Positions 5,781-23,535 of a stretch of DNA of 64,000 bases are shown piece after piece. The stretch spans positions 62,001 to 126,000 of the forward strand of contig VFKA01000005.1 in assembly GCA_009885795.1 (NCBI GenBank). The letters run 5' to 3'. The notes below the pieces were generated by a model. It had not been told where the DNA came from, made no database searches, and saw nothing but the letters and a program-made list of their open reading frames with translations. This DNA comes from Rhodospirillales bacterium (lineage in GTDB: Bacteria; Pseudomonadota; Alphaproteobacteria; Dongiales; Dongiaceae). How positions within the stretch are numbered: position 1 is the stretch's first letter; each line of letters begins with the position of its first letter. A program made the translations under genes and the position numbers.

Positions 5781-7530
5781 AACGCCCAGCCTTCAGGAAG
5801 TTGACCGGATCGAGGGGAACGTCGTCGATCAGAATCTCATAGTGTACATGCGGCCCAGTACTCCGGCCCGAACTCCCGAGAAGGCCGATCTTCTGCCGAT
5901 AGTCAACTACATCGCCCTTCTCGACCGCAAGTGCCTTCATATGGGCGTAAAGCGTGTGGATGCCAAGGCCGTGGTCGATTTCCACCATGCGGCCGTAATT
6001 GCCGCGCCAACCGGCGAACACGACCTTACCAGGCGCCGTACTCATGATCGGCGTGCCGGCGGCGGCGGACAAATCCTGCCCCTCATGCATGGCCAGGCGG
6101 CCATTGAAAGGATCCTTGCGTTTACCAAAACGACTGCCCACGGAGTACTGGTCGATAGGCGCGCTCAGTGGCAACGACTTCAAGACCAGTTGGAGATGCT
6201 CCCATCGCTCGACCTCGTCGTCAAGGTTGGCGACGCTTGCCAACATCACCTCGCTCACGCCCTCGCCCCGCCCCATGACCGGGACGAAGGGACCGCCCTT
6301 GGCGACCGCCATTTCGCCTTTGGCCCGGCGCACCAGGCGGTCGACGCTGACACCGGTCATGGCAACGATTTTCTCGATGCCGTCGACACCATCGCGCGTG
6401 CGCTCCACGATCCGCTGGAACAGGCCGTCCTGATTAGCCTCGATCGTCGCCAGGTGCTCCTCGAGCTCCGTCACCCGGCCGGAAAGCTCCGCCCGGGCCG
6501 ACTGCAAGGCGTTGCGCTGGCCGATCGCCGAGGCCAGCGCCTCCTGCACCGAATCCATCTGCTGGGCAAACCGATCGCGCTCCTCGCGCACGGTCCCGAA
6601 CTCGGCGCGCAACGAAACCAATTCCTTCTCGAGCGCTTCCTTGTCGTTGCCGGTCGTGGAGAGTTGCTGCGACAGCGTGCTGACGCGCTCCTCGATCTGG
6701 GACCGTGCATCGCGCGTCGCATCGAGCTGGCGGGCGAGGCTGGCGATCTGCGCATTCAAACTGGCCTGATGGCGGGCAAACTCGCCCTCGTTTTTCTGCG
6801 CGTCACCGAGCCGCGAGCGCAAGACCCCGAGGGTAATCGACAGATTGCCGCTTTGATCGTTGGCCATGGCCAGCCGCCGCTGGCCTTCTTCGAGCTGACG
6901 CCCGATCCGCTCGCGCATCTCCTCGATGCGCGTTGCCTCTTCCTCCGACAGACGCAGGCGTTCCTTGAGCTCGGCGATATTGCCCGTCAGCGCCTGCTCG
7001 GACGTCTTCAGCCGCCGCTCCAGGTCGGCGGCGTTGCCGCTCATTTTCTTGTTGAGGTCGAGAACGCGGGTCAATCCGGCTTCGTAAGCGAGCATGTCGT
7101 CGCCACCCGGCGCCGCGGGATCGGCTTGGCCGACAAGGTCGCGCAGCGACCCAGCGGACGGGCGCTCGTCGCGCAACTGACCCACAAAATCGAACACGCC
7201 GGGATCCCGCTCGTCCAACTTGTCCGTAAGCGTCGCGAATTGGTCGTAATAATCCGCGAGGTCGTTCAGCATGTCGATGTAGGCGACCTTCGCTTTCTCG
7301 CGGTCGTCATCGAACGTCGCGAGGCGCAGCTCCTTGACGAGGACGCCGAACGAGGAAAAGCCGACCCAGCCGAGCATCAGCACCGAAAACAGCGTCGCGG
7401 TCAGCTGCAGGCGCGAACTCAGCGTGATGTAGCGGACCCGGCCGTCGGCGGCGCGGATAAGGATCTCGCGGGCCGCGAATGCACGACGCAAAAGGCCGCC
7501 TAACGCGGCGCCGGCTCTTCCAAATGCCAT
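5764..7530 (-). CDS. M23 (LytM) family metallopeptidase with coiled coil
   Basis: A probable cell-wall endopeptidase or amidase activator of 588 residues. An N-terminal segment with one membrane helix (LTATLFSVLMLGWVGF) is followed by a long periplasmic coiled coil, roughly residues 100-380, rich in E, R, L and Q. The C-terminal M23 domain shows HEGQDLSAAAGTPI, KVVFAGWRGNYGRMVEIDHG, HTLYAHM and a GPHVHYEI end. The metal motif is HEGQD where the usual form is HxGxD, and HVHYE supplies the second histidine pair, so catalysis looks possible. The ATG at 7530 has AAGGGGG upstream; an in-frame ATG at 7551 is an alternative. It is translated together with the bactofilin downstream, which likely positions it. 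Confidence 0.92.
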   Translation of the reverse strand: MAFGRAGAALGGLLRRAFAAREILIRAADGRVRYITLSSRLQLTATLFSVLMLGWVGFSSFGVLVKELRLATFDDDREKAKVAYIDMLNDLADYYDQFATLTDKLDERDPGVFDFVGQLRDERPSAGSLRDLVGQADPAAPGGDDMLAYEAGLTRVLDLNKKMSGNAADLERRLKTSEQALTGNIAELKERLRLSEEEATRIEEMRERIGRQLEEGQRRLAMANDQSGNLSITLGVLRSRLGDAQKNEGEFARHQASLNAQIASLARQLDATRDARSQIEERVSTLSQQLSTTGNDKEALEKELVSLRAEFGTVREERDRFAQQMDSVQEALASAIGQRNALQSARAELSGRVTELEEHLATIEANQDGLFQRIVERTRDGVDGIEKIVAMTGVSVDRLVRRAKGEMAVAKGGPFVPVMGRGEGVSEVMLASVANLDDEVERWEHLQLVLKSLPLSAPIDQYSVGSRFGKRKDPFNGRLAMHEGQDLSAAAGTPIMSTAPGKVVFAGWRGNYGRMVEIDHGLGIHTLYAHMKALAVEKGDVVDYRQKIGLLGSSGRSTGPHVHYEILIDDVPLDPVNFLKAGRYVFKG

Positions 7531-7796: not shown

Positions 7797-9710
7797 TCAT
7801 GGTTTTTGAATGTCTTTGCCCTTGCCGGCGGCGAAATGCCGCTCGACGTAGGCGACGATCTCGCCGACGCAGTCATCCACCGCCTGGCGCTGGGTATCGA
7901 CCGTAAGCTCGGGCGAATCGGGGGCCTCGTAGGGCGCCGATACGCCCGTGAAATCGGCGATTTCGCCACTGCGGGCCTTCTTGTAGAGGCCCTTGGGGTC
8001 GCGTTCCTCGCAGGTCATCAAGTCGGCCTCGACATAGACCTCGTGGAAGAGTTCCCGCGCCGCTTCCCGGGCGCGCTGACGATCCGCGCGGTAGGGCGAG
8101 ATGAAGGCCGTGATGGCGATGAGGCCGGCTTGGGCGAACAGCGCCGCGACCTGGCCGACGCGCCGGATGTTCTCGGCCCGGTCGTCGGGCGAGAAGCCGA
8201 GATTGGCGTTCAGCCCCTGGCGCACGTTGTCGCCATCGAGTACATAGACGTGATAGCCGCGCCGAAACAGTTCCTGCTCCACCGCCATGGCGAGCGTCGA
8301 CTTGCCGGCGCCGGACAAGCCGGTGAACCACAGCACGCCGCCGCCATGGCCGTTGCGCACCGCCCTAGCCACGGCGCTCACGCGGTGTTCGACGCTATGG
8401 AGGTTGCTGGAACGCTTGGTGATGAGGTCGCGCTGGTCCGGGTAACCCTCCATGCTCACGAGGCCGCCGGCGACGATGTTATGGCCGTCGGTCAGAACGA
8501 ACCGGCCGGTGCGCGGCAGGAAGCGCGCCTCGTCGACGGCTAAGAGCGCCATCGTGCGCAAGATCACGTCCGCCACGCCGTGGCGCGGGACCGCGTCGCC
8601 CAGGCGCGCCGAAAGATCGTCGGGGTCGAACACGCGCTCGACTTGCTGCACGGTGACCGGGGTTTCGCGCGTGCCGATCTTGAGCTGGTACTGGCTGCCG
8701 GCGGTCAGCGGCGTGTGCCCAAGCCAGAACAGGCGGCCGCGGAACACGTTGCTCTCGATCGGCGCGTGGTCCTCGCGGCTCGCCACCTCGCCGCGCTCGA
8801 TGAACAGCTGGTGATCGAGGGTGATGCCGATCGACTGGCCGGCGTTGGCTTCGACCATCGGCCCCGGCCGGTTCCAGGTCTCGATCGTGGCGACGATTGC
8901 GGTCTTGTTGCTGGGCGAAAACAGCAGCCGGTCGCCGACGCCGATGCGCCCGGTCTCGATGCGCCCGGCCAGGATGCGGCGGTTGTCGAACTTATAGACG
9001 TCCTGGACCGGAAAACGCAGCGGCAGTTCGGTCGGCCGGGGCGCGGGGCGAAAACCGTCGAGCGCCTCGACGATGGTCGGCCCGCGATACCAGTTCATGG
9101 CGCGCGAGCGATGGACGATGTTGTCGCCGTCGCGCGCCGACACCGGGATGTATTGCTCGCCGGCCACGCCGATGCCGGCCAGGAACGCGGCGTAGGTGGC
9201 GCGAATGTTCTCGAACCGGTCGGCCGAGTAATCGACCATATCCATCTTGTTGACCACGACCGCGATCTGGCGGATGCCGAGCAGGTTCAACAGGAATCCG
9301 TGCAGGCGCGATTGTTGCTGAACGCCCTGGCCGGCATCGATCATGACCAGCGCCGCTTCGGCGCTGGCGGCGCCGGTGATCATGTTCTTCACGAATTCGC
9401 GGTGGCCGGGCGCGTCGATGACCACGTATTCGCGCTTGGGCGTGCGAAACCAGATCTGCGCGGTGTCGATGGTGATGCCCTGGTCGCGCTCGGCCTGGAA
9501 GGCATCCATGAGGAACGCCCATTCGAAGGGCATGCCGCGCCGCTCGCACATGGCGCGGATGGCTTCGAGCTTTCCATCGGGCAGCGAGCCCGTGTCATGG
9601 AAAAGCCGGCCGACCAGCGTCGACTTGCCGTGGTCCACATGGCCTACGATCACCAGCCGCAGCGCTTCGCGCAGCCGGTTGCCGCCTGGGACGTCGAGTC
9701 CGGCCTCCAT
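7797..9710 (-). CDS. cysNC: Bifunctional sulfate adenylyltransferase large subunit / APS kinase
   Basis: A CysN-CysC fusion of 637 residues that activates sulfate: the GTPase CysN drives APS synthesis by CysD, and the APS kinase domain makes PAPS. The N-terminal EF-Tu-like GTPase shows GHVDHGKST (residues 23-31), DAPGHREF and NKMD, followed by two beta-barrel domains. The C-terminal kinase has the P-loop GLSGAGKST near residue 465, DGDNVRQGLN, LGFSPDDRAENIRR and FISPYRADR. The start ATG at 9710 overlaps the cysD stop as TGATG, which argues for translational coupling and rules out the much longer open frame extending upstream through cysD. Such fusions are usual in rhizobia and related alphaproteobacteria. 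No cysH/cysI reductase genes are in the window. Confidence 0.96.
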   Translation of the reverse strand: MEAGLDVPGGNRLREALRLVIVGHVDHGKSTLVGRLFHDTGSLPDGKLEAIRAMCERRGMPFEWAFLMDAFQAERDQGITIDTAQIWFRTPKREYVVIDAPGHREFVKNMITGAASAEAALVMIDAGQGVQQQSRLHGFLLNLLGIRQIAVVVNKMDMVDYSADRFENIRATYAAFLAGIGVAGEQYIPVSARDGDNIVHRSRAMNWYRGPTIVEALDGFRPAPRPTELPLRFPVQDVYKFDNRRILAGRIETGRIGVGDRLLFSPSNKTAIVATIETWNRPGPMVEANAGQSIGITLDHQLFIERGEVASREDHAPIESNVFRGRLFWLGHTPLTAGSQYQLKIGTRETPVTVQQVERVFDPDDLSARLGDAVPRHGVADVILRTMALLAVDEARFLPRTGRFVLTDGHNIVAGGLVSMEGYPDQRDLITKRSSNLHSVEHRVSAVARAVRNGHGGGVLWFTGLSGAGKSTLAMAVEQELFRRGYHVYVLDGDNVRQGLNANLGFSPDDRAENIRRVGQVAALFAQAGLIAITAFISPYRADRQRAREAARELFHEVYVEADLMTCEERDPKGLYKKARSGEIADFTGVSAPYEAPDSPELTVDTQRQAVDDCVGEIVAYVERHFAAGKGKDIQKP

Positions 9711-10504
9711 CACATGTACCCGGCGGCCCGCAGGCGCTCGAAAGCGTCTTCGGTCTCGCGATCCATGGCGCGCCCGGCGCGTTCGGGCGTGCGCGTTCCC
9801 TCGAGTTCGGTAATGACCTCGTCCAGCGTCGCCGCCTGGCTCGGCACCGGAAAGGTAATGTCCTGGTCGCCCAAGGAACGATAGCGCATGCCGTTCTTGG
9901 CGAAATAGAGATCGACCACCGGAATGCCCTCGCGCCGCACATACCGCCAGATGTCGAGTTCGGTCCAATGCAGCAGCGGGTGGACCCGGAGGTGGGTCCC
10001 CGCCGGCAGGTCCGAATTGAAGTGGTCCCAGAATTCCGGCGGCTGGTCGCGAAAATCCCACTGCCCGGTGTCGCCGCGCGGGCTGAACACGCGCTCTTTC
10101 GCGCGGACACTCTCCTCGTCGCGCCGGATGCCGGCGATGATGCCGGTGAATTTGTGCTTGGCGATGGCGTCGCGCAAGCCCAGCGTCTTGCGCGCGGCCG
10201 AGCGCGCGTTGGTCGGCAGCGTCGGATCGACCGCCTCCACCCCCGGGCAGTCCTCGACGATCAGGTTGAGATCCCACGCCTTGGCGTAGCGCTCGCGGAA
10301 CGCATACATCGCGGGAAACTTCTTGCCGGTATCGATATGCATCACCGGAAAGGGCACGCGCCCGAAGAACGCCTTGCGGGCAAGCCAGACCATGACGTTG
10401 CTGTCCTTGCCCAAGGACCACAGCATGGCGAGCCGCTCGATGCGGTTGAACGCTTCGCGCAGGATGTACACGCTTTGGGATTCGAGTTGGTCGAGATGGT
10501 CCAT
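9710..10504 (-). CDS. cysD: Sulfate adenylyltransferase small subunit
   Basis: CysD is the catalytic ATP-sulfurylase subunit: ATP plus sulfate gives APS and pyrophosphate, coupled to GTP hydrolysis by CysN. The 264-residue protein belongs to the PAPS-reductase-like PP-loop family. It shows SLGKDSNVMVWLARKAF (modified PP-loop), PVMHIDTGKKFPAMYAFR, IIAGIRRDEESVRAKER, the RGDTGQWDFRDQPPEFW block and LLHWTELDIWRYV. Length and motifs fit the family fully. It is the first gene of a two-gene cysD-cysNC operon. A small 5-bp-stem inverted repeat (10546-10560) lies upstream, but its role is unknown. Confidence 0.96.
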   Translation of the reverse strand: MDHLDQLESQSVYILREAFNRIERLAMLWSLGKDSNVMVWLARKAFFGRVPFPVMHIDTGKKFPAMYAFRERYAKAWDLNLIVEDCPGVEAVDPTLPTNARSAARKTLGLRDAIAKHKFTGIIAGIRRDEESVRAKERVFSPRGDTGQWDFRDQPPEFWDHFNSDLPAGTHLRVHPLLHWTELDIWRYVRREGIPVVDLYFAKNGMRYRSLGDQDITFPVPSQAATLDEVITELEGTRTPERAGRAMDRETEDAFERLRAAGYM

Positions 10505-10616
10505 GGTGGGAATGCCGCGTTTTGCGCCAGGGGTGCGGGCGTGTAGCGCCTTTAGGGCGCGAAATCAACCGCCTCGACGGGTCGCCCTCGGCAATCGGCG
10601 CGGCGGGCAGGCCCTT

Positions 10617-11663
10617 TCAGCGCGACCCGGCGAGCGCCTCGCGCTTGATCGTCTGGTCCACGACTTCGCCGCGCTGGCGGGCCATGGCGGCCATGATGCG
10701 GAGCACCGTGCAGACGGCAAGGCGCGCCGTGGTGCCGCTTACATCATAAATCGGGCAAAGTTCGGTCACGTCGATCACGCTGACGCCGCCCTGCCGCCCA
10801 ATGAGATCGGCGATGGCGATCATTTCGCGCGATTCGAGGCCGCCCGGCTCGGCCGCCGTCACGCCCGGCGCGGCCGAGGCGTCCATGACGTTGAAATTGA
10901 AGCTGAGATACTGGGCATCGGTGCCGGTCCACACCCGCTCGATGGCCTCGGCCGCGGTCGCCACAACACCGCGTTCGATCATCTCCAGCATCGGGGTGTA
11001 TTTGACGCCGCGGGCGCGGGCGAGGTCGATGAAGTCCTTGGGGTTCATCGAGTTCCTGACCCCCATCACGGCCACCTTGTCGGCCGGCAGGTTCGGCAGT
11101 TCGGTGATGCGCGCCATCGCACAGGGGCCGAGATGCTTCTCGCCGGCCCAGCTATCCGCCATGTCGAGATGGGCGCCGAAATGCAGGCAGCCCATCGTCT
11201 TGCCCGCGCCGAGGTGGTCGGAGAGCGCCTTCGCGGCCATGCCGGATATCGACCGGTCGCCGCCGACGACAATGGGAATGACGCCCGCCGCCAGCACCTC
11301 GCGAACGGCATTGTAGATGCGCTCGCGCGCCACCGGAGGGTTCACCTTCGGCATCTGCACATCGCCGCAATCGACGGCGCAACCCTGGAGGTCGACGTTG
11401 TACTCGAACCAATAGGGGAAATATTCCTGCGAGGCGATGCGGAATTCGCGCGGGCCTTCGTCGGACCCCGGCTTGCCGATGTTGCCTTCATCGAACGGGA
11501 CGCCCACGAAGGCGAAGCGAACCTTGGCCTGGGCGATCGCCGCCGTCTTCATCGGCACGTGCGCCGAACGCAGGAACGTGATTTGACCGGGCGCCCGGTA
11601 ATTGTCGGACTCATCGCCGCCCTGCGGCGAGAAAAGATGGGCATAGGCTTTCGCGGGATTCAT
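10617..11663 (-). CDS. Ureohydrolase-family protein with degenerate metal site (putative non-catalytic subunit)
   Basis: The 348-residue protein has the arginase/agmatinase fold but has lost most Mn/Ni ligands. The GGDHS motif is GGDRS (Arg137), DxHxD is GAHLD (Gly163, with His165 and Asp167 kept) and SxDxD is SFNFN (Asn256, Asn258). Four of six ligands are therefore replaced, so it should not bind the dinuclear centre by itself. It lies 29 bp downstream of an intact paralogue with matching features such as YFPYxFEY, MNPKDF and ISELCP/VTELCP, which points to a hetero-oligomer. Known precedent: in the nickel-dependent metformin hydrolase (MfmAB) one ureohydrolase subunit is catalytic and the other degenerate but required. 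The substrate here is not known. Confidence 0.88.
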   Translation of the reverse strand: MNPAKAYAHLFSPQGGDESDNYRAPGQITFLRSAHVPMKTAAIAQAKVRFAFVGVPFDEGNIGKPGSDEGPREFRIASQEYFPYWFEYNVDLQGCAVDCGDVQMPKVNPPVARERIYNAVREVLAAGVIPIVVGGDRSISGMAAKALSDHLGAGKTMGCLHFGAHLDMADSWAGEKHLGPCAMARITELPNLPADKVAVMGVRNSMNPKDFIDLARARGVKYTPMLEMIERGVVATAAEAIERVWTGTDAQYLSFNFNVMDASAAPGVTAAEPGGLESREMIAIADLIGRQGGVSVIDVTELCPIYDVSGTTARLAVCTVLRIMAAMARQRGEVVDQTIKREALAGSR

Positions 11664-11692
11664 CGTCGTCTCCAGGTTAGGTGTTCATGAAG

Positions 11693-12757
11693 TCAAGGGG
11701 TCCGCCCTTCGGCCATGAGGGTTCGCGCCCGGCTGCCGAGATAGTGATGGACGAGGCAGCAGGCGAGCTTGATCGAGATCTGGCTCACGTCGAATGTCGG
11801 GCACAGTTCCGAGATTTCGAAGATGTCCGCGCCGTAGCGGCCGGCGATGCGGGCGATTTCGATGGCCTCGCGCGGCTTGATGCCGAAGCATTCCGGCGCC
11901 GTGGTGCCCGGCATGCAGGCGGCGTCGAGCGAATCGGTGTCCCAGGAGCAATAGACCCCTTGCGTGCCGCGCCAGGCGATATCGAAGATCTCGCGAGTAC
12001 AGACATCCACGCCACGCTGCACGGCCTCCAGCATCGGGATCACGCGAACGTCGTTGTCGCGGAAGAAGTCCATCCAATCCTTCGGGTTGAGGCCGTTGCG
12101 CGAGCCCATATGGGCGATGTTCGAGCGGTCGCAATTGGGCAGTTCGAGCGCGCGCGAGGGGCCGGAGCAGTTGGTGTTGACGATGCCGGCCCAGTCCGGC
12201 GCCGTATCGAGATGGCAGTCGATGTGGAGATAGCCGATGCGCCCGTCGCGGTGGAAATCGGAGAGCGCGCGGGCCGCCGGAATCGGCACCGAATGATCGC
12301 CGCCGCAGAGGATCACCTTGGCGCCGGCGTGTAGGCATTCGCTCACATAATCGTAAATGTATTGATGCGTGCGGTCATTGTTACCGGGCACGATCGGAAC
12401 GTCGCCGCAATCGACGAGCTTGAAGAACGTCAAGACATCCACGTCGTACTCGAAGAGATAGGGAAAGTACTGCGTCGACGCCTCGCGCAAGCCCCCCGGT
12501 CCGGCGGAGGTTCCGGCGCGCACGACCTGCCCCTGGTCCCAGGGCACGCCGAGGAAGCAGATTTTCGCCCCCATGGCGCGGATGGCGTTGCGGTCCGGCG
12601 CGCAATAGGGCGCGCCCATGAAAGTGGCGATGCCCCCGGCCTTGAACCGGCCATTGTGCTGCCGGGGCGAGTAGATATGGTCGTCGGCGCCCGTCTGGCG
12701 CGCCGGGCCATCATGGCCGTGGGGAACGAGGGACCAAGGCGACGGTGGATTGTTCAT
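11693..12757 (-). CDS. Ureohydrolase (agmatinase/guanidine-hydrolase family), intact active site
   Basis: The 354-residue enzyme keeps every metal ligand of the ureohydrolase family: His155 in CGGDHS, Asp180/His182/Asp184 in DCHLD, and Asp273/Asp275 in SWDTDSLDAA. It should hydrolyse a guanidino compound to urea or a related product plus an amine or amino acid. The N-terminus is longer than in arginase, with YSPRQHNGRFKAGGIATFMG. It is paired with the degenerate paralogue directly downstream and preceded by importer and ligase genes on the same strand. Agmatinase, guanidine hydrolase (GdmH) and metformin-hydrolase-like functions are all possible. I infer the last two because of the pair and the importer, not from any substrate-specific residue. 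Confidence 0.92.
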   Translation of the reverse strand: MNNPPSPWSLVPHGHDGPARQTGADDHIYSPRQHNGRFKAGGIATFMGAPYCAPDRNAIRAMGAKICFLGVPWDQGQVVRAGTSAGPGGLREASTQYFPYLFEYDVDVLTFFKLVDCGDVPIVPGNNDRTHQYIYDYVSECLHAGAKVILCGGDHSVPIPAARALSDFHRDGRIGYLHIDCHLDTAPDWAGIVNTNCSGPSRALELPNCDRSNIAHMGSRNGLNPKDWMDFFRDNDVRVIPMLEAVQRGVDVCTREIFDIAWRGTQGVYCSWDTDSLDAACMPGTTAPECFGIKPREAIEIARIAGRYGADIFEISELCPTFDVSQISIKLACCLVHHYLGSRARTLMAEGRTP

Positions 12758-12785: not shown

Positions 12786-13604
12786 TCATGACGGCCGGGA
12801 CGCGACGGCGTCGCGGCTTTCCTCGCGCATCATGCGCATGATGCGCGCTTCAAGCTCGATGTAACCAGGGGTCTTGATCAGGCTCTCCTTGTCCTTGATG
12901 CGCCGTCCGCCCTTGAACGCGACCCGGATATTTTCGCGCACACGGCCCGGATGCCGGCTCAAGAAGACGATCCGGTCGGCGAGGAAGATCGCCTCCTCGA
13001 TGTCGTGCGTGACCATCAGCACCGTGGTGCGCGAGGATTCCATGATGCCGAGCAGCAACTCCTGCATGCTCCAGCGGGTCTCGGCGTCGAGCGCGCCGAA
13101 CGGCTCGTCCATCAGCAGGATGGCGGGGTCGTTGGCGAGCGTGCGGGCGATGGCGACGCGCTGCTTCATGCCGCCGGACAATTGCTTCGGATAGGCGTCC
13201 TTGAATGCCGACAGATGCACCAGATCGATGAAATGGTCCGCCCGCCGGCGCCGCTCGGCGGTCGGCACGCCGTGAAGCCGCATGCCGTATTCGACGTTGC
13301 GGCGCACGGTGAGCCAGGGAAAGGACGTGTAGCTCTGAAAAACCATGCCGCGGTCGCGGCCAGGACCGACGATCCCCTTGCCGTCGAGCGCGATCGTGCC
13401 CTTGGACGGCTCCTCGAGCCCCGCCACCATGCGCAAGATCGTTGACTTGCCGCAGCCGGACGGGCCGAGCAGGACGCAAATCTCGTTCTCCGTCACGTTG
13501 AACGAAATATCGACCACCGCCTGAACGTAGTGTCCGCGGCGCAGCACGAAGTCCTTGCCGACGCCCTCTACGGCAAGCTTCATGCGACCTTCCGGATGCC
13601 CCAT
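12786..13604 (-). CDS. ABC transporter ATP-binding protein (nitrate/sulfonate/taurine type)
   Basis: The 272-residue ATPase energises the importer encoded by the same operon. Motifs in order: Walker A GPSGCGKST, Q-loop VFQSYTSFPW, signature QLSGGMKQR, Walker B ILLMDEPFGALD and switch histidine MVTHDIEEA. The VFQ(x)4PW Q-loop region and DEPFGALD are typical of the SsuB/TauB/NrtD group. An ATG at 13604 (GAGGGG upstream) is chosen; an in-frame ATG at 13583 with GGAAGG before it is an alternative. Unusually, the ATPase gene is separated from its permease by the binding protein and a glutamine-synthetase-like gene. That suggests all belong to one catabolic operon. Confidence 0.92.
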   Translation of the reverse strand: MGHPEGRMKLAVEGVGKDFVLRRGHYVQAVVDISFNVTENEICVLLGPSGCGKSTILRMVAGLEEPSKGTIALDGKGIVGPGRDRGMVFQSYTSFPWLTVRRNVEYGMRLHGVPTAERRRRADHFIDLVHLSAFKDAYPKQLSGGMKQRVAIARTLANDPAILLMDEPFGALDAETRWSMQELLLGIMESSRTTVLMVTHDIEEAIFLADRIVFLSRHPGRVRENIRVAFKGGRRIKDKESLIKTPGYIELEARIMRMMREESRDAVASRPS

Positions 13605-13617
13605 GCCGCGGCGCCCC

Positions 13618-15045
13618 TCAATAGAACCTGAGATATTCGTTGCGCTCCCATTCGGTCACGTGCTCATGGAACCGCGCCCATTCGCCATGCTTGTAGCGGC
13701 TGAAGGACGCGTGCATGACCGGACCCAGGGTCTCGCGCGCCAACTCGTCATCGTCGAACGCCGCGATAGCCTCCTTGAGGTTGCCGGGCAGGGCCTTCAC
13801 GCCCCTGGCGGCCAGCTTGTCCAGGTCGGCGTCGTACAGCGACTCTTCCATCGGCGGACCGGGATCGAGGTGCCGCGTCATGCCCTCCAGCGATGCCGCC
13901 GAGGTCATCGCCAAGGCCAGGTAGGGATTAAGGCACATGTCGGCGGCGCGATTCTCGATCGCATGGCGGGTTTGCGGCAGGCGCAGCATCGCCGAGCGGT
14001 TGTTGACGCCGTAGCACATATGGGTCGGCGCCCAGGTGATGGTGCCGCCTTCGAATCCGCTGACGCGCCCAAGCAAGCCCTTGTAGGAATTGACGGTCGA
14101 GCAGGCGATGGCGGTCAGCGCCGCGCCATGGCCGAGGAGGCCGGCCAGCGCCTGGCGGGACATCTCGCTCCAGCCGCCCTTCTCGCCTTCGAATAGATTG
14201 ACACCGGGGCGGGCGAGCGCTTGTACGCTGTGATTGATGTGGGCGCCGTTGCGCCAATCGCCCTGGGTCGGCTTGGGCATATAGGTGATGAAATAGCCGT
14301 GCTTCTTGGCGACCTCCTTGAGCATGATCCGAAGGAACGTGAACCGGTCGGCCATTGCCACCAGGTCGGTGAATCCGAAATCGAGCTCGAACTGCGAATA
14401 GGCGCCTTCGCACACGACGTCCTTCATGCCCCAGCCCAGGCCGTCGATGATGTCGATGAGCTCGCCCAGGAACGGCATGGCATCGAGCGAGAATTCAACG
14501 TCGTAGCCGAAGGCTTGCCGTCGCGGCCGCAGGCCGCCGCTTCCAGGCAATGGATCGGTATCGAAGGCCTTTTGCGGCTGGCCGTTCTCGTCATAGCGCA
14601 TGACGATGAACTCCGGCTCGAAGCCGGCGAAGAACCGGTAACCCAGATCGGCGGCCGCTTTCACCTGCCGCTTCAGGGCCAGTCGCGGACAAACCGCGTA
14701 AGGCGCGCCGAGAAAATAGAGATCGGCGAAGACGATCGCCACCGTGGTGTCCCACGGGCAAATATAAAGGGCGTCGAGGTCGGGAATCGGGATCTGATCC
14801 GGATCGGCCGGACCGAGTTCGGGCACCATCGAGACCGAGTGGACCGCGAATTGCGGGCCCTTGCCGGCGCATAGCGCCTCCAGTTCCGACAGCGGCACCG
14901 GCTTGGTCTTGGGCACGCCCAGAAGGTCGATCCAGCACGACATCACATATTTGACACCGGCCTTTTCCAGCCGCGAGCGCGCTTCTTCGATGCGCTCCCT
15001 GCTTGGCATCGCCGCGGTCATGGTCGTCGGGTAGAGCGTCGTCAT
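13618..15045 (-). CDS. Glutamine synthetase family ligase (GlnT / GmaS type)
   Basis: The 475-residue protein is an ATP-dependent glutamate-amine ligase of the GlnT (type III-named) family, which includes gamma-glutamylmethylamide synthetase. The beta-grasp domain shows SCWIDLLGVPKTKPVP. The catalytic domain has FAGFEPEF, CEGAYSQFELDF, YMPKPTQGDWRNGAHINHS, NSYKGLLGR, NNRSAMLRLP and ENRAADMCLNPYLA. The tyrosine-adenylylation loop of classical GlnA is not evident. An ATG at 15045 has GGGG six bases upstream; 15057 is an alternative. Sitting between importer genes and beside two ureohydrolases, it may capture the amine or ammonia released from the imported compound as a gamma-glutamyl amide. That is inference; plain glutamine synthetase remains possible. 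Confidence 0.88.
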   Translation of the reverse strand: MTTLYPTTMTAAMPSRERIEEARSRLEKAGVKYVMSCWIDLLGVPKTKPVPLSELEALCAGKGPQFAVHSVSMVPELGPADPDQIPIPDLDALYICPWDTTVAIVFADLYFLGAPYAVCPRLALKRQVKAAADLGYRFFAGFEPEFIVMRYDENGQPQKAFDTDPLPGSGGLRPRRQAFGYDVEFSLDAMPFLGELIDIIDGLGWGMKDVVCEGAYSQFELDFGFTDLVAMADRFTFLRIMLKEVAKKHGYFITYMPKPTQGDWRNGAHINHSVQALARPGVNLFEGEKGGWSEMSRQALAGLLGHGAALTAIACSTVNSYKGLLGRVSGFEGGTITWAPTHMCYGVNNRSAMLRLPQTRHAIENRAADMCLNPYLALAMTSAASLEGMTRHLDPGPPMEESLYDADLDKLAARGVKALPGNLKEAIAAFDDDELARETLGPVMHASFSRYKHGEWARFHEHVTEWERNEYLRFY

Positions 15046-15116
15046 CTTGGTCCCCATTTCATTCGACAGAAGGGAGGCTTGCGACCGCGATCGCCCGCCT
15101 CCCTTCGTTCCTCGTT

Positions 15117-16223
15117 CTAGTAAAGCGGATCGGGCGTGCCGGCGAAGCCGGATTCGTACAGCTCGCGATGCAGACCGCACTCGACCCCGCGCGCCGCCGG
15201 TATCTCGGACGCAACCTGCTTGAACTTGATCCACCATTCGTTCACCAGGCGCCAGTGGGCGTAGATTTGACCGTTCTTCTGTCCGAAAGGCGGCTCGCCC
15301 GGCGCCGAGCCGCAGAAGCGCGCGGCCTCGGTGAAGGTGTAGGGATAGAGCCCCCCGTCGGTGCCGCTGCCATCCTTGCCCAAGACCATCTCGACGTCCT
15401 TCACGTCGAAGTTGAGGCCCTTGGCGATGATGGCGTTGATCTCGGCCGGGTTTTGTTTCCACAAATCGACCGCCTTGTAGAGCGCCCCCATCAGTTCGAC
15501 GGCGGCGGCGCGCTTGGCGTGGATGAAGTCGGCATTCATGTAGACGGCGTCGGCGAGCAGACCGGTGCTTGCCCATTCGGCGCTTCGCGAATCGGCGATC
15601 TTGATCGAGCCCGGAAGCCCGGACAGGACCTGGCTCGCATAGGGCTCCCACAACTCGCCGGCGGCGATGTCGCCGCCCATCATGGCCGCCGCGGCATCGT
15701 CCATGATCACGTTCACATACTCGACGCCATTGGGATCGACGCCGCCATCCTCCAGCCACTTGCCGACGAAGATCTGTTGCAATCCGCCGACCATCACCGC
15801 CACCTTCTTGCCCTCCACGTCCTTGGGCGAGGTGACGCCGGGCGCGGCGATGATCTGATCGGTGCCATAGGACAGATTGGCGAAGGCGACCAGCCGCACC
15901 GGCATGGCGCGCTCGATGGCGATCGGGCCGAACTCGCTGGTGCTGGACATGACATCGAGTTGGCCCGCCGTCACCATGCCGAAGCTTTGCAGCGGATCTT
16001 CGATGATTTGAATGTCGAGATTGAGATTGGGCGCCAGATTCTTTTCCTTGATCACGAACCAGAAGCCATAGCCCGGCCACGAAAACAGCGAAATCCTCAC
16101 TGTCTCCGCGGCCTGGACGCGCGTGCCGCCGGTAGCGGCGACAATCGCAACGACGCCCAAGGCAAGAACCGCCGCGAACGCGCCGCGACGAAACCAAGAA
16201 TGCTCCCGTTTAAGTTTTCGCAT
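15117..16223 (-). CDS. ABC transporter substrate-binding protein (NMT1/TauA-like)
   Basis: A 368-residue periplasmic receptor for the importer. The signal peptide (basic start, hydrophobic AAVLALGVVAIVAA, cleavage near VQAAE) is followed by a type II binding fold of the nitrate/taurine/thiamine-precursor class. Landmarks are SLFSWPGYGFWFVIKEKNL at the start of the mature part, GQLDVMSSTSEF, a helix-capping PKDVEGKKVAV and AAGELWEPYASQVL. A long C-terminal section (about residues 300-368) contains three cysteines' worth of extra sequence. The ligand cannot be read from sequence. Relatives of this class beside guanidine-metabolism genes are known to be annotated as nitrate/sulfonate/taurine receptors. 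AAGGAAGGGG precedes the ATG. Confidence 0.9.
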   Translation of the reverse strand: MRKLKREHSWFRRGAFAAVLALGVVAIVAATGGTRVQAAETVRISLFSWPGYGFWFVIKEKNLAPNLNLDIQIIEDPLQSFGMVTAGQLDVMSSTSEFGPIAIERAMPVRLVAFANLSYGTDQIIAAPGVTSPKDVEGKKVAVMVGGLQQIFVGKWLEDGGVDPNGVEYVNVIMDDAAAAMMGGDIAAGELWEPYASQVLSGLPGSIKIADSRSAEWASTGLLADAVYMNADFIHAKRAAAVELMGALYKAVDLWKQNPAEINAIIAKGLNFDVKDVEMVLGKDGSGTDGGLYPYTFTEAARFCGSAPGEPPFGQKNGQIYAHWRLVNEWWIKFKQVASEIPAARGVECGLHRELYESGFAGTPDPLY

Positions 16224-16305: not shown

Positions 16306-17142
16306 TCAGGCCCTTGTCTCTTCCAGATACGGAAATAGAAAGTCGTGCGCCAAACGGAACAGATAGTCGGCGACCAGGCCCAGAATGCCGATGACCAGAA
16401 TCCCGGCCATGATCTCGTCGGTGTGAACGAAGCGCTTGGCCCGCATCATCATCGCGCCGATGCCGGTGGTCGAGGTGATGATCTCGGCGATCACCAGATA
16501 GGTCCAACTCACCGCCAGCATCTGACGCATGGCGACCACGATGTCCGGCATGACCGCCGGCACGATGACGGTCCACAGCGTCTGCCGGCGCGTGGCGCCG
16601 AGTGTCACCGCCGTATCGATCAGCTCTTGGCGCACCGCCTTGGTGCGGTCCATGATGAGCGTGATGAGAAACCACAGCACGCCGATGAACAAAAGCGCCA
16701 GTTTCTGCAAGTCGCCTGTCCCGAACCACATCAGCAGCAGCGGGACGAAGGACGGCGCCGGCAGATAGCGCCAGGCCGAGACCAGCGGGTTGAAGAAGGC
16801 TTCCGCCGAGCGGAACGACCCCATCAGGATGCCGAGCGGCACGGCGACGGCGGCGGCGGCGGCGAAGCTTGCCAGGATACGGTAGATGCTGACCGCGACA
16901 TCGACCAGGAATCCTTCTTCGACGACTAGCCTGTCGAGCGCGACGACGACGGCCCAGGGCGCCGGCAGCAAGAGCGGCGGCGCCCATCCCACGCTCACGG
17001 CGATCTGCCACACTCCGAAAAACACGACCCAGACCGCGGCGCCGAGCCCCAGCACCTCGGGAAGACCCAGCGGCTTCCTCAACTCGAGCCAGTTGCGACG
17101 CCGCGCGAGCGAGGGCCTCGCGGCGCTCACGGCTGCCCCCAT
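16306..17142 (-). CDS. ABC transporter permease (nitrate/sulfonate/taurine type)
   Basis: The 278-residue inner-membrane permease has about six hydrophobic helices, beginning LGLGAAVWVVFFGVWQIAV. The EAA cytoplasmic loop is recognisable around TAVTLGATRRQTLWTVIVPAVMP. It forms the importer channel with the ATPase and receptor of this operon. The ATG at 17142 overlaps the Lrp-family gene by 16 bp, so the regulator and permease are translationally coupled. There is no clear Shine-Dalgarno site before this ATG, which fits coupling. Family: SsuC/TauC/NrtB. Confidence 0.91.
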   Translation of the reverse strand: MGAAVSAARPSLARRRNWLELRKPLGLPEVLGLGAAVWVVFFGVWQIAVSVGWAPPLLLPAPWAVVVALDRLVVEEGFLVDVAVSIYRILASFAAAAAVAVPLGILMGSFRSAEAFFNPLVSAWRYLPAPSFVPLLLMWFGTGDLQKLALLFIGVLWFLITLIMDRTKAVRQELIDTAVTLGATRRQTLWTVIVPAVMPDIVVAMRQMLAVSWTYLVIAEIITSTTGIGAMMMRAKRFVHTDEIMAGILVIGILGLVADYLFRLAHDFLFPYLEETRA

Positions 17143-17693
17143 TTTAGGAGGCTCTTGTACATGGCGAGCCCGATCATGGGCTCGGTCGCCGCGACCTCCG
17201 GCTGGCGGTAGCAGTGATCGAAGAGAAAATCGCGCAGCGCCGCTTGGGTCTCGCACACCGCTTCCACCAAAAGGTCGAAACGGCCGGCGACGAAGAGCAC
17301 ATAGGTGACTTCCGGGCGGTCGCGAAAACGCGCGGCCACTCGATCCGGATCGGCGCCGGGCGCCAGCTTCATGCCGATCATGGCATAGGCGGTGTAGCCC
17401 ATCGCCATGGGGTCGGCGACCGCGATGATGCGCACGACGCCCGACTGCTTCAACCGCGCGACGCGATTGCGCACCGTCCCTTCCGATACCTTGAGCGCGC
17501 GGGCGATGGTGGCGAAGGCGAGCCGCCCGTCTTCCTGCAATTGCCGGACGATGGCACGGTCGAGTTCATCGGACGGCTCTGGCGCCGCAAACGGCCGCGC
17601 GGCCGGCACGACCGTCAGCGTCGGACCAGGCTTCGCCGCCGCCTTGTCGGCCTTCCGGCGCCGATTCGCGATGCCCGTGCGAGCGCTGACCAT
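17127..17693 (-). CDS. Lrp/AsnC-family transcriptional regulator
   Basis: The 188-residue regulator has a basic, proline/alanine-rich N-terminal extension of about 40 residues, then the AsnC-type helix-turn-helix (ELDRAIVRQLQEDGRL, ATIARALKVSEGTVRNRV) and a RAM effector-binding domain (TYVLFVAGRFDLLVEAV). It is the first gene of the presumed operon with transporter, ligase and ureohydrolases, and it overlaps the permease. By analogy it likely senses a small nitrogenous or amino-acid-like ligand and controls its own operon. AGGGGGG lies before the start. The 132 bp between this gene and the cupin gene upstream is AT-richer than its surroundings and is the obvious place for the promoter and operator. 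Confidence 0.92.
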   Translation of the reverse strand: MVSARTGIANRRRKADKAAAKPGPTLTVVPAARPFAAPEPSDELDRAIVRQLQEDGRLAFATIARALKVSEGTVRNRVARLKQSGVVRIIAVADPMAMGYTAYAMIGMKLAPGADPDRVAARFRDRPEVTYVLFVAGRFDLLVEAVCETQAALRDFLFDHCYRQPEVAATEPMIGLAMYKSLLKWGQP

Positions 17694-20629: not shown

Positions 20630-20689
20630 CATCGATAGACAATCGGCAGTTCACGGCCGGGACCGAATCTCGCAGATTGTCTGTCGATG
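20630..20689. promoter_or_regulatory. Long inverted repeat upstream of bufferin genes (possible operator)
   Basis: CATCGATAGACAATC at 20630-20644 and GATTGTCTGTCGATG at 20675-20689 are reverse complements with one mismatch over 15 bp, separated by 30 bases. It lies 57 bp before the start of precursor 2. The arms are AT-richer than the surroundings. This could be a repressor or activator site, or a 5'-leader hairpin, controlling the bufA2-bufA3-bufB-bufC-doxX unit. Confidence 0.5.
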
Positions 20690-20746
20690 AAGAGGTCGAG
20701 GTTCGCTAACGCGCCGTTGGGGCGCCCAACGTCAACAAAGGAGACC

Positions 20747-21019
20747 ATGATGAAGACCACCGCGCTTGTTGCTTCCGCTCTCGCCGCCGCCATCGCCACC
20801 GCCGCCATCGCCAGCGCCCAGGCCGGCCCTGCCGCGGTGCCGGGGTACGAAAACGAGAAGTGTTTCGGCATCGCCTTTGCCGGCAAGAACGATTGCCAGA
20901 CCGCCAATAGCTCGTGCGCCGGCACATCGACGAAAGACCAGCAGGCGGACGCCTGGATCTACATTCCAAAGGGCACCTGCGAAAAAATCGTCGGCGGCAG
21001 TATGATGCCGAAGGCGTAA
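20747..21019 (+). CDS. Bufferin-type precursor, DUF2282 (copy 2)
   Basis: A 90-residue DUF2282 precursor. The signal peptide ([21 protein letters not shown]) is nearly the same as in copy 3. The mature part has four cysteines (39, 50, 57, 78) in [22 protein letters not shown] and [10 protein letters not shown], spaced C-x10-C-x6-C-x20-C. By family it is a substrate of the MNIO enzyme BufB, giving a copper-binding periplasmic peptide. AAAGGAG is close before two tandem ATG codons (20747 and 20750); 20750 has the better spacing, so the protein may start one residue later. Copy 3 follows after 104 bp containing an imperfect hairpin. Confidence 0.9.
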
Positions 21020-21123
21020 TTCGAGCGTACGGCTTTGCTCACGGCCATTCTCCGCCCGAATCCGGCGACTTCGGAATCGGGTGGAGATGGCGAGCCACGG
21101 TAGAACCACCCACGACAGGAAGA

Positions 21124-21381
21124 ATGACTGTGAAGACCCCGATTTTCGTTGCTTCCGCTCTCGCCGCCGCTATCGCCACCGCCGGCATCGTCGGCGTTGC
21201 CCAGGCAGCCGAGAACGAGAAATGCTATGGTGTCGTCAAGGCCGGCAAGAACGACTGCCAGACCGCGTCGACTTCTTGCGCCGGCACGGCGACCTCCGAC
21301 GCCAAGCCCGACGCCTGGTTCTATGTTCCGGTCGGAACCTGCGAGAAGATCGTGGGCGCCAGCTTGACGCCCAAGGCCTAA
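21124..21381 (+). CDS. Bufferin-type precursor, DUF2282 (copy 3, next to bufB)
   Basis: An 85-residue precursor with a signal peptide ending near AQAAE and cysteines 34, 45, 52 and 73, in [26 protein letters not shown] and [10 protein letters not shown]. Its spacing is identical to the other two copies, and the mature protein is very close to copy 2, so the two probably arose by tandem duplication. It starts 27 bp before bufB, the standard bufA-bufB arrangement. Expected fate: export, cysteine modification, copper binding. GGAAGA precedes the ATG. An imperfect hairpin between copies 2 and 3 (21045-21064 with 21072-21090) could set their relative mRNA levels. Confidence 0.92.
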
Positions 21382-21408
21382 CGGCGTCTCGTCGCGGGAG
21401 CGGCCGAC

Positions 21409-22296
21409 ATGTCCCTCTCGACCGCTACCGCGGCGGCCACCCCGGACTCGGTCCCGGCGCAAGCCGGGATCGGACTCCGCCACGTCCATCATCGCGACGT
21501 CCTCGACGGCAAACCCAAGGTCGGGTTTCTCGAGGTGCATGCCGAGAACTATTTCGGCGGCGGCGCCCCGGTTCATATCCTCGCCCGGCTTGCCGAGGAT
21601 TATCCGATCAGCCTGCATGCCGTCGGCGTATCGCTGGGCACGGACGGGCCGTTGGACCGGAGCCATCTCGCGTGCATCAAGGCGCTGGCCAAACGCGTCG
21701 AGGCGTCCCTGGTCTCCGACCACCTCTCCTGGTGCATGGTCGATGGCGTCTATCTCAACGACCTGCTGCCGTTGCCCTACACCGAGGAATCGCTTTCCGT
21801 CGTCACCGCCCACGTCGACGAGATGCAGATGGCGCTGGGGCGCGAGGTGCTGATCGAGAACCCGTCCTCCTATCTGCAATTCACCCACTCCACCATGCCC
21901 GAGTGGGAATTCCTGAACGAAGTGGCGCGCGCGACCGGCTGCGGCTTGCTGCTCGATGTCAACAACATCTATGTCAGCGCCATGAATCACGGGCTGGACG
22001 CCGGCCTCTATCTCGATGCCGTGAATGCCGGCGCCGTTCGCGAAATCCACCTCGCGGGCCATCACGTGAAGGAGGTCGCCGGCACGACTCTACGCATCGA
22101 CGACCATGGATCGGCGGTCGCCCCGGCGGTCTGGGCGCTGTTCGAGCGCGCCGCGCGGCGCCTTGGACCGATCCCGACTCTCGTCGAATGGGACAGCAAC
22201 ATTCCGAGCCTGCCGGACCTCGTGGACGAAGCCGGGAAGGCGGACCGAATCCTCGCCGCCGTCGTCAAGGAGCACGACCGTGTCGTCGTTGCTTGA
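21409..22296 (+). CDS. bufB: MNIO (DUF692) bufferin-maturation oxidase BufB
   Basis: The 295-residue TIM-barrel multinuclear non-haem iron oxidase is expected to oxidise cysteines of the DUF2282 precursors to thiooxazole-type groups. Landmarks of DUF692 are AGIGLRHVHHRDVL, VGFLEVHAENYFGGGAP, SLHAVGVSLGTD, LVSDHLSWC, EVLIENPSSYL, LLLDVNNIYVSA, EIHLAGH and a late PTLVEWDSNIP. These supply the expected His/Glu/Asp iron ligands. GGGAG precedes the start. It is followed with a 17-bp overlap by bufC. The cytosolic location matches modification before export. Family identity is secure; the exact chemistry is inferred from characterised relatives. Confidence 0.95.
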   Translation: MSLSTATAAATPDSVPAQAGIGLRHVHHRDVLDGKPKVGFLEVHAENYFGGGAPVHILARLAEDYPISLHAVGVSLGTDGPLDRSHLACIKALAKRVEASLVSDHLSWCMVDGVYLNDLLPLPYTEESLSVVTAHVDEMQMALGREVLIENPSSYLQFTHSTMPEWEFLNEVARATGCGLLLDVNNIYVSAMNHGLDAGLYLDAVNAGAVREIHLAGHHVKEVAGTTLRIDDHGSAVAPAVWALFERAARRLGPIPTLVEWDSNIPSLPDLVDEAGKADRILAAVVKEHDRVVVA

Positions 22297-23074
22297 CCTG
22301 CAGCGCGCCATGAGCGCCGGCATCCTCGACGGCGCTCCGCCGGCGTCGCTCCTGTCGCTCGTGCGCGCCGATGCGATTCCGGCGGATGGCCGGGTGCGTG
22401 TCTATCGCAACAACACCTTCATCAGCCTGACCGAGGCGCTGAAGGCCACCTTCCCCGTCGTACTGCGCCTGGTCGGGGATGGCTTCTTCCAGTTCGCCGC
22501 CGATGCTTTCATCCGCCACAACCCGCCGACCTCGCCGCGCGTCGCCCTTTACGGCGCCGCGTTCGCGGATTTCCTTTCGGCCTTCGACCCGGCGAGGCAC
22601 CTGCCCTACCTGCCCGACGTGGCGCGGTTGGAATGGGCCATCAACGAATCCTATCACGCGGTGGACGCAAGCATGTTGGACCCCCGCGCGATCGCCGCGG
22701 TTCCGATCGCGCGTTACGCCGACCTGATGTTCATCCCGCACCCCTCGTGCCGGCTGATCGCCTCGCCCTATCCGATCGAGGCCATCTGGCGGGCCAATCG
22801 GCCGGACCGCGACGGCGCCGCATCGCTCGATGCGCCGAGCAGTCACCTGCTCGTTCATCGCTACGATCTGGACGTGCGATTGGCCGAGATCGGCCGCGCC
22901 GGCCACGCGTTTCTTGCCGCCATCGTCGCCGGAAGCTTTCTCGGCCGGGCCTACGAGGATGCCGCCCGCATCGATCCCGATTTCGAACTCGCTTCGGCCC
23001 TGAGCGGCCACTTGGCGCGCGGAATCTTCACGACCTTCGTCAACCCACTTCAATCCCATGGAGACGGATCATGA
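22280..23074 (+). CDS. bufC: DUF2063-type bufferin partner BufC (HvfC-like)
   Basis: A 264-residue protein of the DUF2063 family that pairs with MNIO enzymes and presents the precursor to BufB. It opens SLLDLQRAMSAGILDG and shows the typical RVYRNNTFISLTEALKATFPVV, FFQFAADAFIRHNPPTSPRV, YGAAFADFL, LPYLPDVARLEWA and SYHAVDA. The start is a GTG at 22280 with AAGGAG eight bases upstream, inside the end of bufB; the open frame continues further upstream only out of phase with bufB, and no homologous residues lie there. It overlaps doxX as ATGA. Gene order bufA-bufB-bufC-doxX is the conserved bufferin operon. Confidence 0.92.
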   Translation: MSSLLDLQRAMSAGILDGAPPASLLSLVRADAIPADGRVRVYRNNTFISLTEALKATFPVVLRLVGDGFFQFAADAFIRHNPPTSPRVALYGAAFADFLSAFDPARHLPYLPDVARLEWAINESYHAVDASMLDPRAIAAVPIARYADLMFIPHPSCRLIASPYPIEAIWRANRPDRDGAASLDAPSSHLLVHRYDLDVRLAEIGRAGHAFLAAIVAGSFLGRAYEDAARIDPDFELASALSGHLARGIFTTFVNPLQSHGDGS

Positions 23075-23535
23075 GTCCCACCTTTTCGCGCGACGCCGGT
23101 GCATCGGGGGTCGGGGGTCTTGCAATGCGGATCGTTCGCGCGGCCGAGCGCGTCCCCGTCGCCTTGCCGGCCTTGGTCTTGCGCCTTGGCGTGGTTTTGG
23201 TCTTCTGGCGCGCCGGGCAATCGAAGCTCGCGAGCTGGGATACCACCCTCTTGTTGTTCGCCGAGGAATACAAAGTCCCGGTCATCCCCCCGGAGATCGC
23301 CGCCTATCTTGCCACCGCGCTCGAACATGCCGGACCGGTCATGCTGGTGCTGGGGTTGGGCGCGAGACTCGGGGCCGCGGCGATGCTGGGCATGACGCTC
23401 GTCATTCAGATTTTCGTCTATCCGACCAGCTATCCCGATCATCTGTTGTGGGCGGGGCCGCTTCTGTACCTGGTGCTGCGCGGGCCGGGCGCCATTTCGA
23501 TCGACCACGCCATCCGCCGGCGCTTCGAAGCTTGA
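23071..23535 (+). CDS. DoxX-family membrane protein of the bufferin operon
   Basis: A 154-residue membrane protein with about four hydrophobic segments (VALPALVLRLGVVLVFW, MLVLGLGARLGAAAMLGM and others). It has the DoxX family hallmarks RAGQSKLASWD, a mid-protein YLATALEHAGPVMLVLGL and IQIFVYP. DoxX proteins often accompany bufferin genes and may link to quinones, respiration or export; the role is unproven. ATGA overlap with bufC and GGAG before the ATG indicate translational coupling. It is the last gene of the cluster before an unrelated tiny cytochrome-oxidase-type gene. Confidence 0.9.
   Translation: MSPTFSRDAGASGVGGLAMRIVRAAERVPVALPALVLRLGVVLVFWRAGQSKLASWDTTLLLFAEEYKVPVIPPEIAAYLATALEHAGPVMLVLGLGARLGAAAMLGMTLVIQIFVYPTSYPDHLLWAGPLLYLVLRGPGAISIDHAIRRRFEA

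Follow-up and report, generated by a model that had tools for sequence, protein, structure and literature searches.

The window, by which we mean the whole 64,000-nucleotide stretch of DNA analysed here, contains an intact and a degenerate ureohydrolase gene (alpha and beta; Table 1) that very probably encode the two subunits of a natural heteromer of the MefH/DmgH (MetCaCb, MfmAB) family, acting on an alkylguanidine. Because such pairs have been described by Li et al. 2024 (PMC11271267) and by Sinn et al. 2024 (PMC11399263), we regard it as a further member of an already known family. The former study listed 56 pairs of intact and degenerate genes from four phyla, and found that homologous pairs at 94, 71 and 62% identity to MetCa formed hexamers, their metformin activity being about 20,000-fold lower at 94% and 71% and absent at 62% (Li et al. 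2024, PMC11271267); the uncharacterised pairs of that list resemble the window pair in joining an intact to a degenerate partner. The pairs of Aminobacter niigataensis DSM 7050 and of Hyphomicrobium hydrolyse N,N-dimethylguanidine and not metformin, dimethylguanidine itself being not yet identified in biological systems (Sinn et al. 2024, PMC11399263).

Table 1. Genes of the alpha/beta locus and its flank (window positions)
Feature	Position	Strand	Remarks
cysD-like and cysN/cysC-like sulfate-activation genes	7797-10504	minus	directly downstream of beta; probably a separate operon
Beta, degenerate ureohydrolase	10617-11663	minus	348 aa; 29 bp from alpha
Alpha, catalytic ureohydrolase	11693-12757	minus	354 aa; six metal ligands intact
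ABC transporter ATPase, NitT/TauT type	12786-13604	minus	28 bp directly upstream of alpha
Glutamine-synthetase-like ligase	13618-15105	minus	start codon not fixed
Periplasmic substrate-binding protein, NMT1/SsuA type	15117-16223	minus	profile matches
ABC permease, BPD_transp_1	16306-17256	minus	listed start overlaps next gene
Lrp/AsnC-type regulator	17127-17693	minus	homologues in L021, L022, L024, L025

Placement of the gene pair

Both reading frames, reported in the first-pass annotation as ureohydrolases 29 bp apart, are open at the positions it gave and match the Pfam Arginase profile PF00491 (180 bits for alpha, 194 bits for beta), and a residue alignment bears out its reading of alpha as having all six metal ligands (H155, D180, H182, D184, D273 and D275). 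In a search of PDB sequences the best matches of alpha are the MefH alpha chains (8ryi, 8x3g, 8snf, 8snk; 556–559 bits), with MefH beta (227 bits) and the guanidinases (143–148 bits) well below; beta likewise matches MefH beta best (543 bits) and MefH alpha next (about 200 bits). Alpha is 63.3% identical to MefH alpha (8ryi) and beta 66.7% to MefH beta, the window pair sharing the architecture of MefH/MetCaCb/MfmAB (8ryi, 8x3g, 8snf).

A tree of 68 rows resolves the alphas of such pairs as one clade (99/98) and the betas as another (100/99), each together with the matching MefH subunit, and both apart from the remaining entries: GdmH, guanidinopropionase, proclavaminate amidinohydrolase and the genome's other ureohydrolases. 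This is the phylogeny that the first-pass annotation had proposed as a check, and the opposite case, in which beta would branch with unrelated decayed families, did not arise; its suggestion of an MfmAB-like layout in a natural relative agrees with the tree, the adjacency of the genes and the beta signature described below. GdmH (7esr, 9fek) was also considered as an identity for alpha and rejected, alpha not branching with it in the same tree; GdmH shares the ureohydrolase fold and ligands and is Ni2+-dependent, but is a single-gene enzyme to which alpha scores 143–148 bits against 558 for MefH alpha. At the level of single residues, alpha has Asn (N196), where His is usual, at the place of MetCa Asn199, a residue described as unique to the metformin-hydrolase family (Li et al. 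2024, PMC11271267), and W189 and E317 are kept as the equivalents of MetCa W192 and E320.

Alpha and beta stand side by side in all 26 untruncated related loci. Sampling of 385 and 398 other genomes from the class and phylum returned no relative at E<=1e-100 beyond the pair's own genome, and among 103 genomes of the family to which locus L023 belongs, the L023 pair was the only one present. The only plasmid-borne relatives found were on three Pseudomonas plasmids, which carry MefH-like genes.

The degenerate subunit

At four of the six ligand places beta has R137, G163, N256 and N258, as first annotated and as the residue alignment confirms, while H165 and D167 are retained. Across 28 other beta sequences the resulting R/G/./D/N/N pattern is broken in a few cases only, and never at N256 or N258; because R/G/N/N recurs across the beta family, the degeneration reflects shared ancestry, and neither chance nor recent or independent decay. 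Values of dN/dS against the nearest relatives are 0.16–0.28 for beta and 0.16–0.24 for alpha: purifying selection acts to a similar degree on beta and on alpha.

The earlier suggestion that beta keeps the fold is upheld by an AlphaFold model in which the ureohydrolase fold is retained (pTM 0.82), and whose first matches among PDB structures are MefH beta chains (TM about 0.84); the corresponding model of alpha was of low quality (pLDDT 58) and was set aside. The N-terminal ‘cap’ of beta is conserved and includes Y22, with F82 also present, and its first 23 residues are identical to MefH beta at 19 of 23 positions, against 211 of 322 in the remainder. In MetCb, the N-terminal 23 residues are needed for soluble MetCaCb (Li et al. 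2024, PMC11271267).

Automatic models label alpha agmatinase-like, and genome G759 has an orphan window-type alpha that lacks a beta, both of which would suit a reading in which the two genes are neighbours by chance, alpha being a lone agmatinase-type enzyme and beta a paralogue that is in decay or serves in regulation. We consider this very improbable: scores for agmatinase and formimidoylglutamase fall under the curated cut-offs, and the tree, the conserved adjacency, the beta signature and the purifying selection on beta all argue against it. The orphan itself (L064, 5032-6099, minus strand; 77% identical, with a TTA pocket and no adjacent beta) lies near a Rieske oxygenase gene in a genome that also holds a complete pair (L020), and either borrows a beta or acts alone.

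Pocket types and candidate substrates

For a heteromer of the MefH/DmgH family, which remains our preferred reading, the pocket residues of alpha are C181, N196, T285-T286-A287, F291 and E317. Residue alignment sorts the relatives into three pocket types: a DmgH type with Ser or Ala at 181, S285-T286-S287 and Y291 (clade 100/99); a type found at 13 loci, with T77, C181 and T285-S286-C287 (clade 100/100); and that of the window and loci L020–L025, with C181, T285-T286-A287 and F291, which forms a clade in 36% of bootstraps and may otherwise be a grade beside DmgH. This variety suggests that pockets diversified in the family before the drug-degrading branch arose, and comparison of the three types (STS, TTA, TSC) could trace the evolution of activity on metformin.

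The window pair lies outside the DmgH/MefH clade (100/99). At the positions where DmgH-clade members carry S/A184-S288-T289-S290 it has C-T-T-A, and of the MefH residues C184 and N288-S289-A290 it has the Cys and the Ala without the Asn and the Ser, and falls outside that branch as well. Two of four MefH-type residues (Cys at MefH 184, Ala at 290) might be taken to commend metformin as substrate; we hold it to be a highly unlikely one, given that the pair branches apart from the MefH/DmgH clade and shares no more than that Cys and Ala of the four. Set against metformin too are the Gly-Thr-Thr-Ala of the window in place of the Ala-Asn-Ser-Ala of MefH (A287, N288 and S289 being absent), the near or complete inactivity of natural homologues on metformin (Li et al. 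2024, PMC11271267), and the want of an NCS1 transporter at the window locus.

Where the first-pass annotation had committed to no substrate, the present evidence favours dimethylguanidine or some other small alkylguanidine over metformin. N,N-dimethylguanidine is the leading candidate, with roughly an even chance of being the main substrate: it is used by the two natural members that have been assayed, and the L023 pair, with its window-type pocket, has identities to DmgH alpha/beta (69.9/67.5%) that match those of the Hyphomicrobium enzyme (70/68%; Sinn et al. 2024, PMC11399263), a likeness that is no more than suggestive. DmgH of A. niigataensis DSM 7050 resembles the window pair in gene pairing, order and lengths, in the six alpha ligands, in the R/G-or-S/N/N signature of beta, in the Asn at the MetCa 199 place and in the equivalents of W192 and E320, but the two are 62.7/66.1% identical, and the DmgH pocket reads S-S-T-S-Y against C181-T285-T286-A287-F291 in the window. 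Since the pair stands outside the DmgH clade and differs at C181, T285, A287 and F291, the DmgH substrate need not carry over to it. Only seven alpha columns, including 181, 285, 287 and 291, fully separate the window set from the DmgH set; their enrichment close to the pocket does not reach significance (Fisher p 0.06–0.31) and so is not taken as proof of distinct specificity.

The operon and its ligase

The genetic context also differs from that of DmgH: the Aminobacter locus carries an NCS1 transporter, whereas the window locus has no NCS1 and instead an ABC transporter and a glutamine-synthetase-like ligase, with no HypA/HypB in the operon. A NitT/TauT-type ABC transporter is common to most loci of the window type—homologues of the ATPase lie beside L021, L024 and L025 (57–75% identical) and of the substrate-binding protein at L021, L023 and L024 (56–57%)—the exception being L020, on whose short contig no transporter is visible. 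In the 13-locus type the ABC transporter is of another kind and comes with an SBP_bac_8 protein, a system carried exceptionally also by the DmgH-type locus L027. The true start of the permease is probably further in than the listed one, and the Lrp/AsnC-type protein is the probable regulator of the operon. No Rfam riboswitch match, and thus no guanidine riboswitch, was found in the window or in four related loci. HypA and/or HypB lie upstream of the pair in 25 of the 26 untruncated related loci, L024 being the exception; like the window, it is without HypAB in the operon, and each of these two genomes has HypAB beside a second pair.

The ligase has homologues at L021, L022 and L024 (61–67% identical), and is thus present at four of the seven window-type loci, with a conserved VVCEGAYSQFE that replaces the GmaS motif. 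It resembles GmaS (7cql, 9qur) in fold, in having Ala for GS Asp50 and in keeping Trp300, Glu186 and Arg312, but is 35% identical to it and has Val231 where GmaS has Asp177, the Val being conserved in the relatives at L021, L022 and L024; in the reference enzyme RhGmaS the Asp50 place is ammonium-binding and Asp177 catalytic (PMC7948447). Because its score is under the type III ligase cut-off (362 against 469.6 bits) and Ala and Val stand at the Asp50 and Asp177 places, the window ligase is, judged by sequence, distinct both from standard glutamine synthetases and from GmaS; it is likely to gamma-glutamylate an amine, which may be the one that the hydrolase releases. A true GmaS is encoded elsewhere in the genome, on contig C100, together with sarcosine-oxidase-like and glutamate-synthase-like genes, a cluster consistent with an N-methylglutamate pathway.

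A second pair in the same genome

Eight arginase-family genes are found in the genome. Among its contigs, C52 carries, in order, HypB and HypA, a second alpha/beta pair and a GdmH-like gene; the alpha of this pair is 69–70% and the beta about 70% identical to the window counterparts, and in trees the pair groups with DmgH. Two pairs per genome are also present in G757 and G758. The GdmH-like ureohydrolase of C52 (L009 in G000, 8507-9736, minus strand) is intact and scores 426 bits to 7esr; homologues 76–78% identical to it occur near the pairs at L025 and L037.

Proposed function

We propose that alpha and beta assemble, most likely as an alpha2beta4 hexamer, in which alpha would carry a di-nickel centre and beta, itself metal-free, would cap and complete the alpha active site through its N-terminal segment. 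The NitT/TauT-type ABC transporter would import a small N-alkylated guanidine, for which N,N-dimethylguanidine or something close to it is the most probable choice; by homology, two Ni2+ ions would activate a water molecule for attack on the guanidinium carbon, yielding urea and an amine. The urea could pass to the genome's urease, of which the alpha subunit is encoded; the operon ligase may attach a gamma-glutamyl group to the amine, and HypA/HypB, whose genes adjoin the second pair, would insert the nickel. No homologue of a HODM-type (DmmA-like) dimethylamine monooxygenase was found in the genome, which leaves the fate of dimethylamine without explanation and counts against this scheme, as do the absence of HypAB from the window operon and the lack of a guanidine riboswitch match.

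A narrower form of the same scheme would give the window pair an alkylguanidine other than that of DmgH, with the amine caught by the operon ligase, and leave dimethylguanidine to the C52 pair. The coexistence of two pairs, here as in G757 and G758, speaks for such a division, as do the seven separating alpha columns, the transporter type particular to most of the window set, the ligase at four of its seven loci and the separate presence of a true GmaS with its N-methylglutamate-type cluster. Given on the other side a pocket enrichment short of significance, and identities to DmgH at the window-pocket locus L023 that match those of the dimethylguanidine-hydrolysing Hyphomicrobium enzyme, we regard it as a credible possibility, if one of less than even probability. 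More tentative still, and on balance rather unlikely, is that the operon forms a whole pathway, not described before, by which a second natural alkylguanidine is used alongside a distinct dimethylguanidine system of the same cell: ABC uptake, cleavage by a heteromeric nickel ureohydrolase with a specificity particular to it, and trapping of the freed amine by a glutamate-amine ligase of a new type. A wild pair that coexists with a DmgH-type pair and comes with a transporter of its own and a conserved ligase offers a concrete system in which to find a natural alkylguanidine.

Other observations

At a locus in Thermoleophilia (L048), two ureohydrolase genes (9947-10924, alpha-like with six ligands, and 6010-7371) are accompanied by two permease-like genes; this is perhaps the independent tandem arrangement mentioned for Limnocylindrales (Sinn et al. 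2024, PMC11399263). The window also holds a Bufferin-like RiPP operon on the plus strand (20687-23535), comprising a DUF2282 precursor (20687-21019), a similar second precursor ending at 21381, an MbnB/TglH/ChrH enzyme (21409-22296), a DUF2063 protein and a DoxX-like protein.
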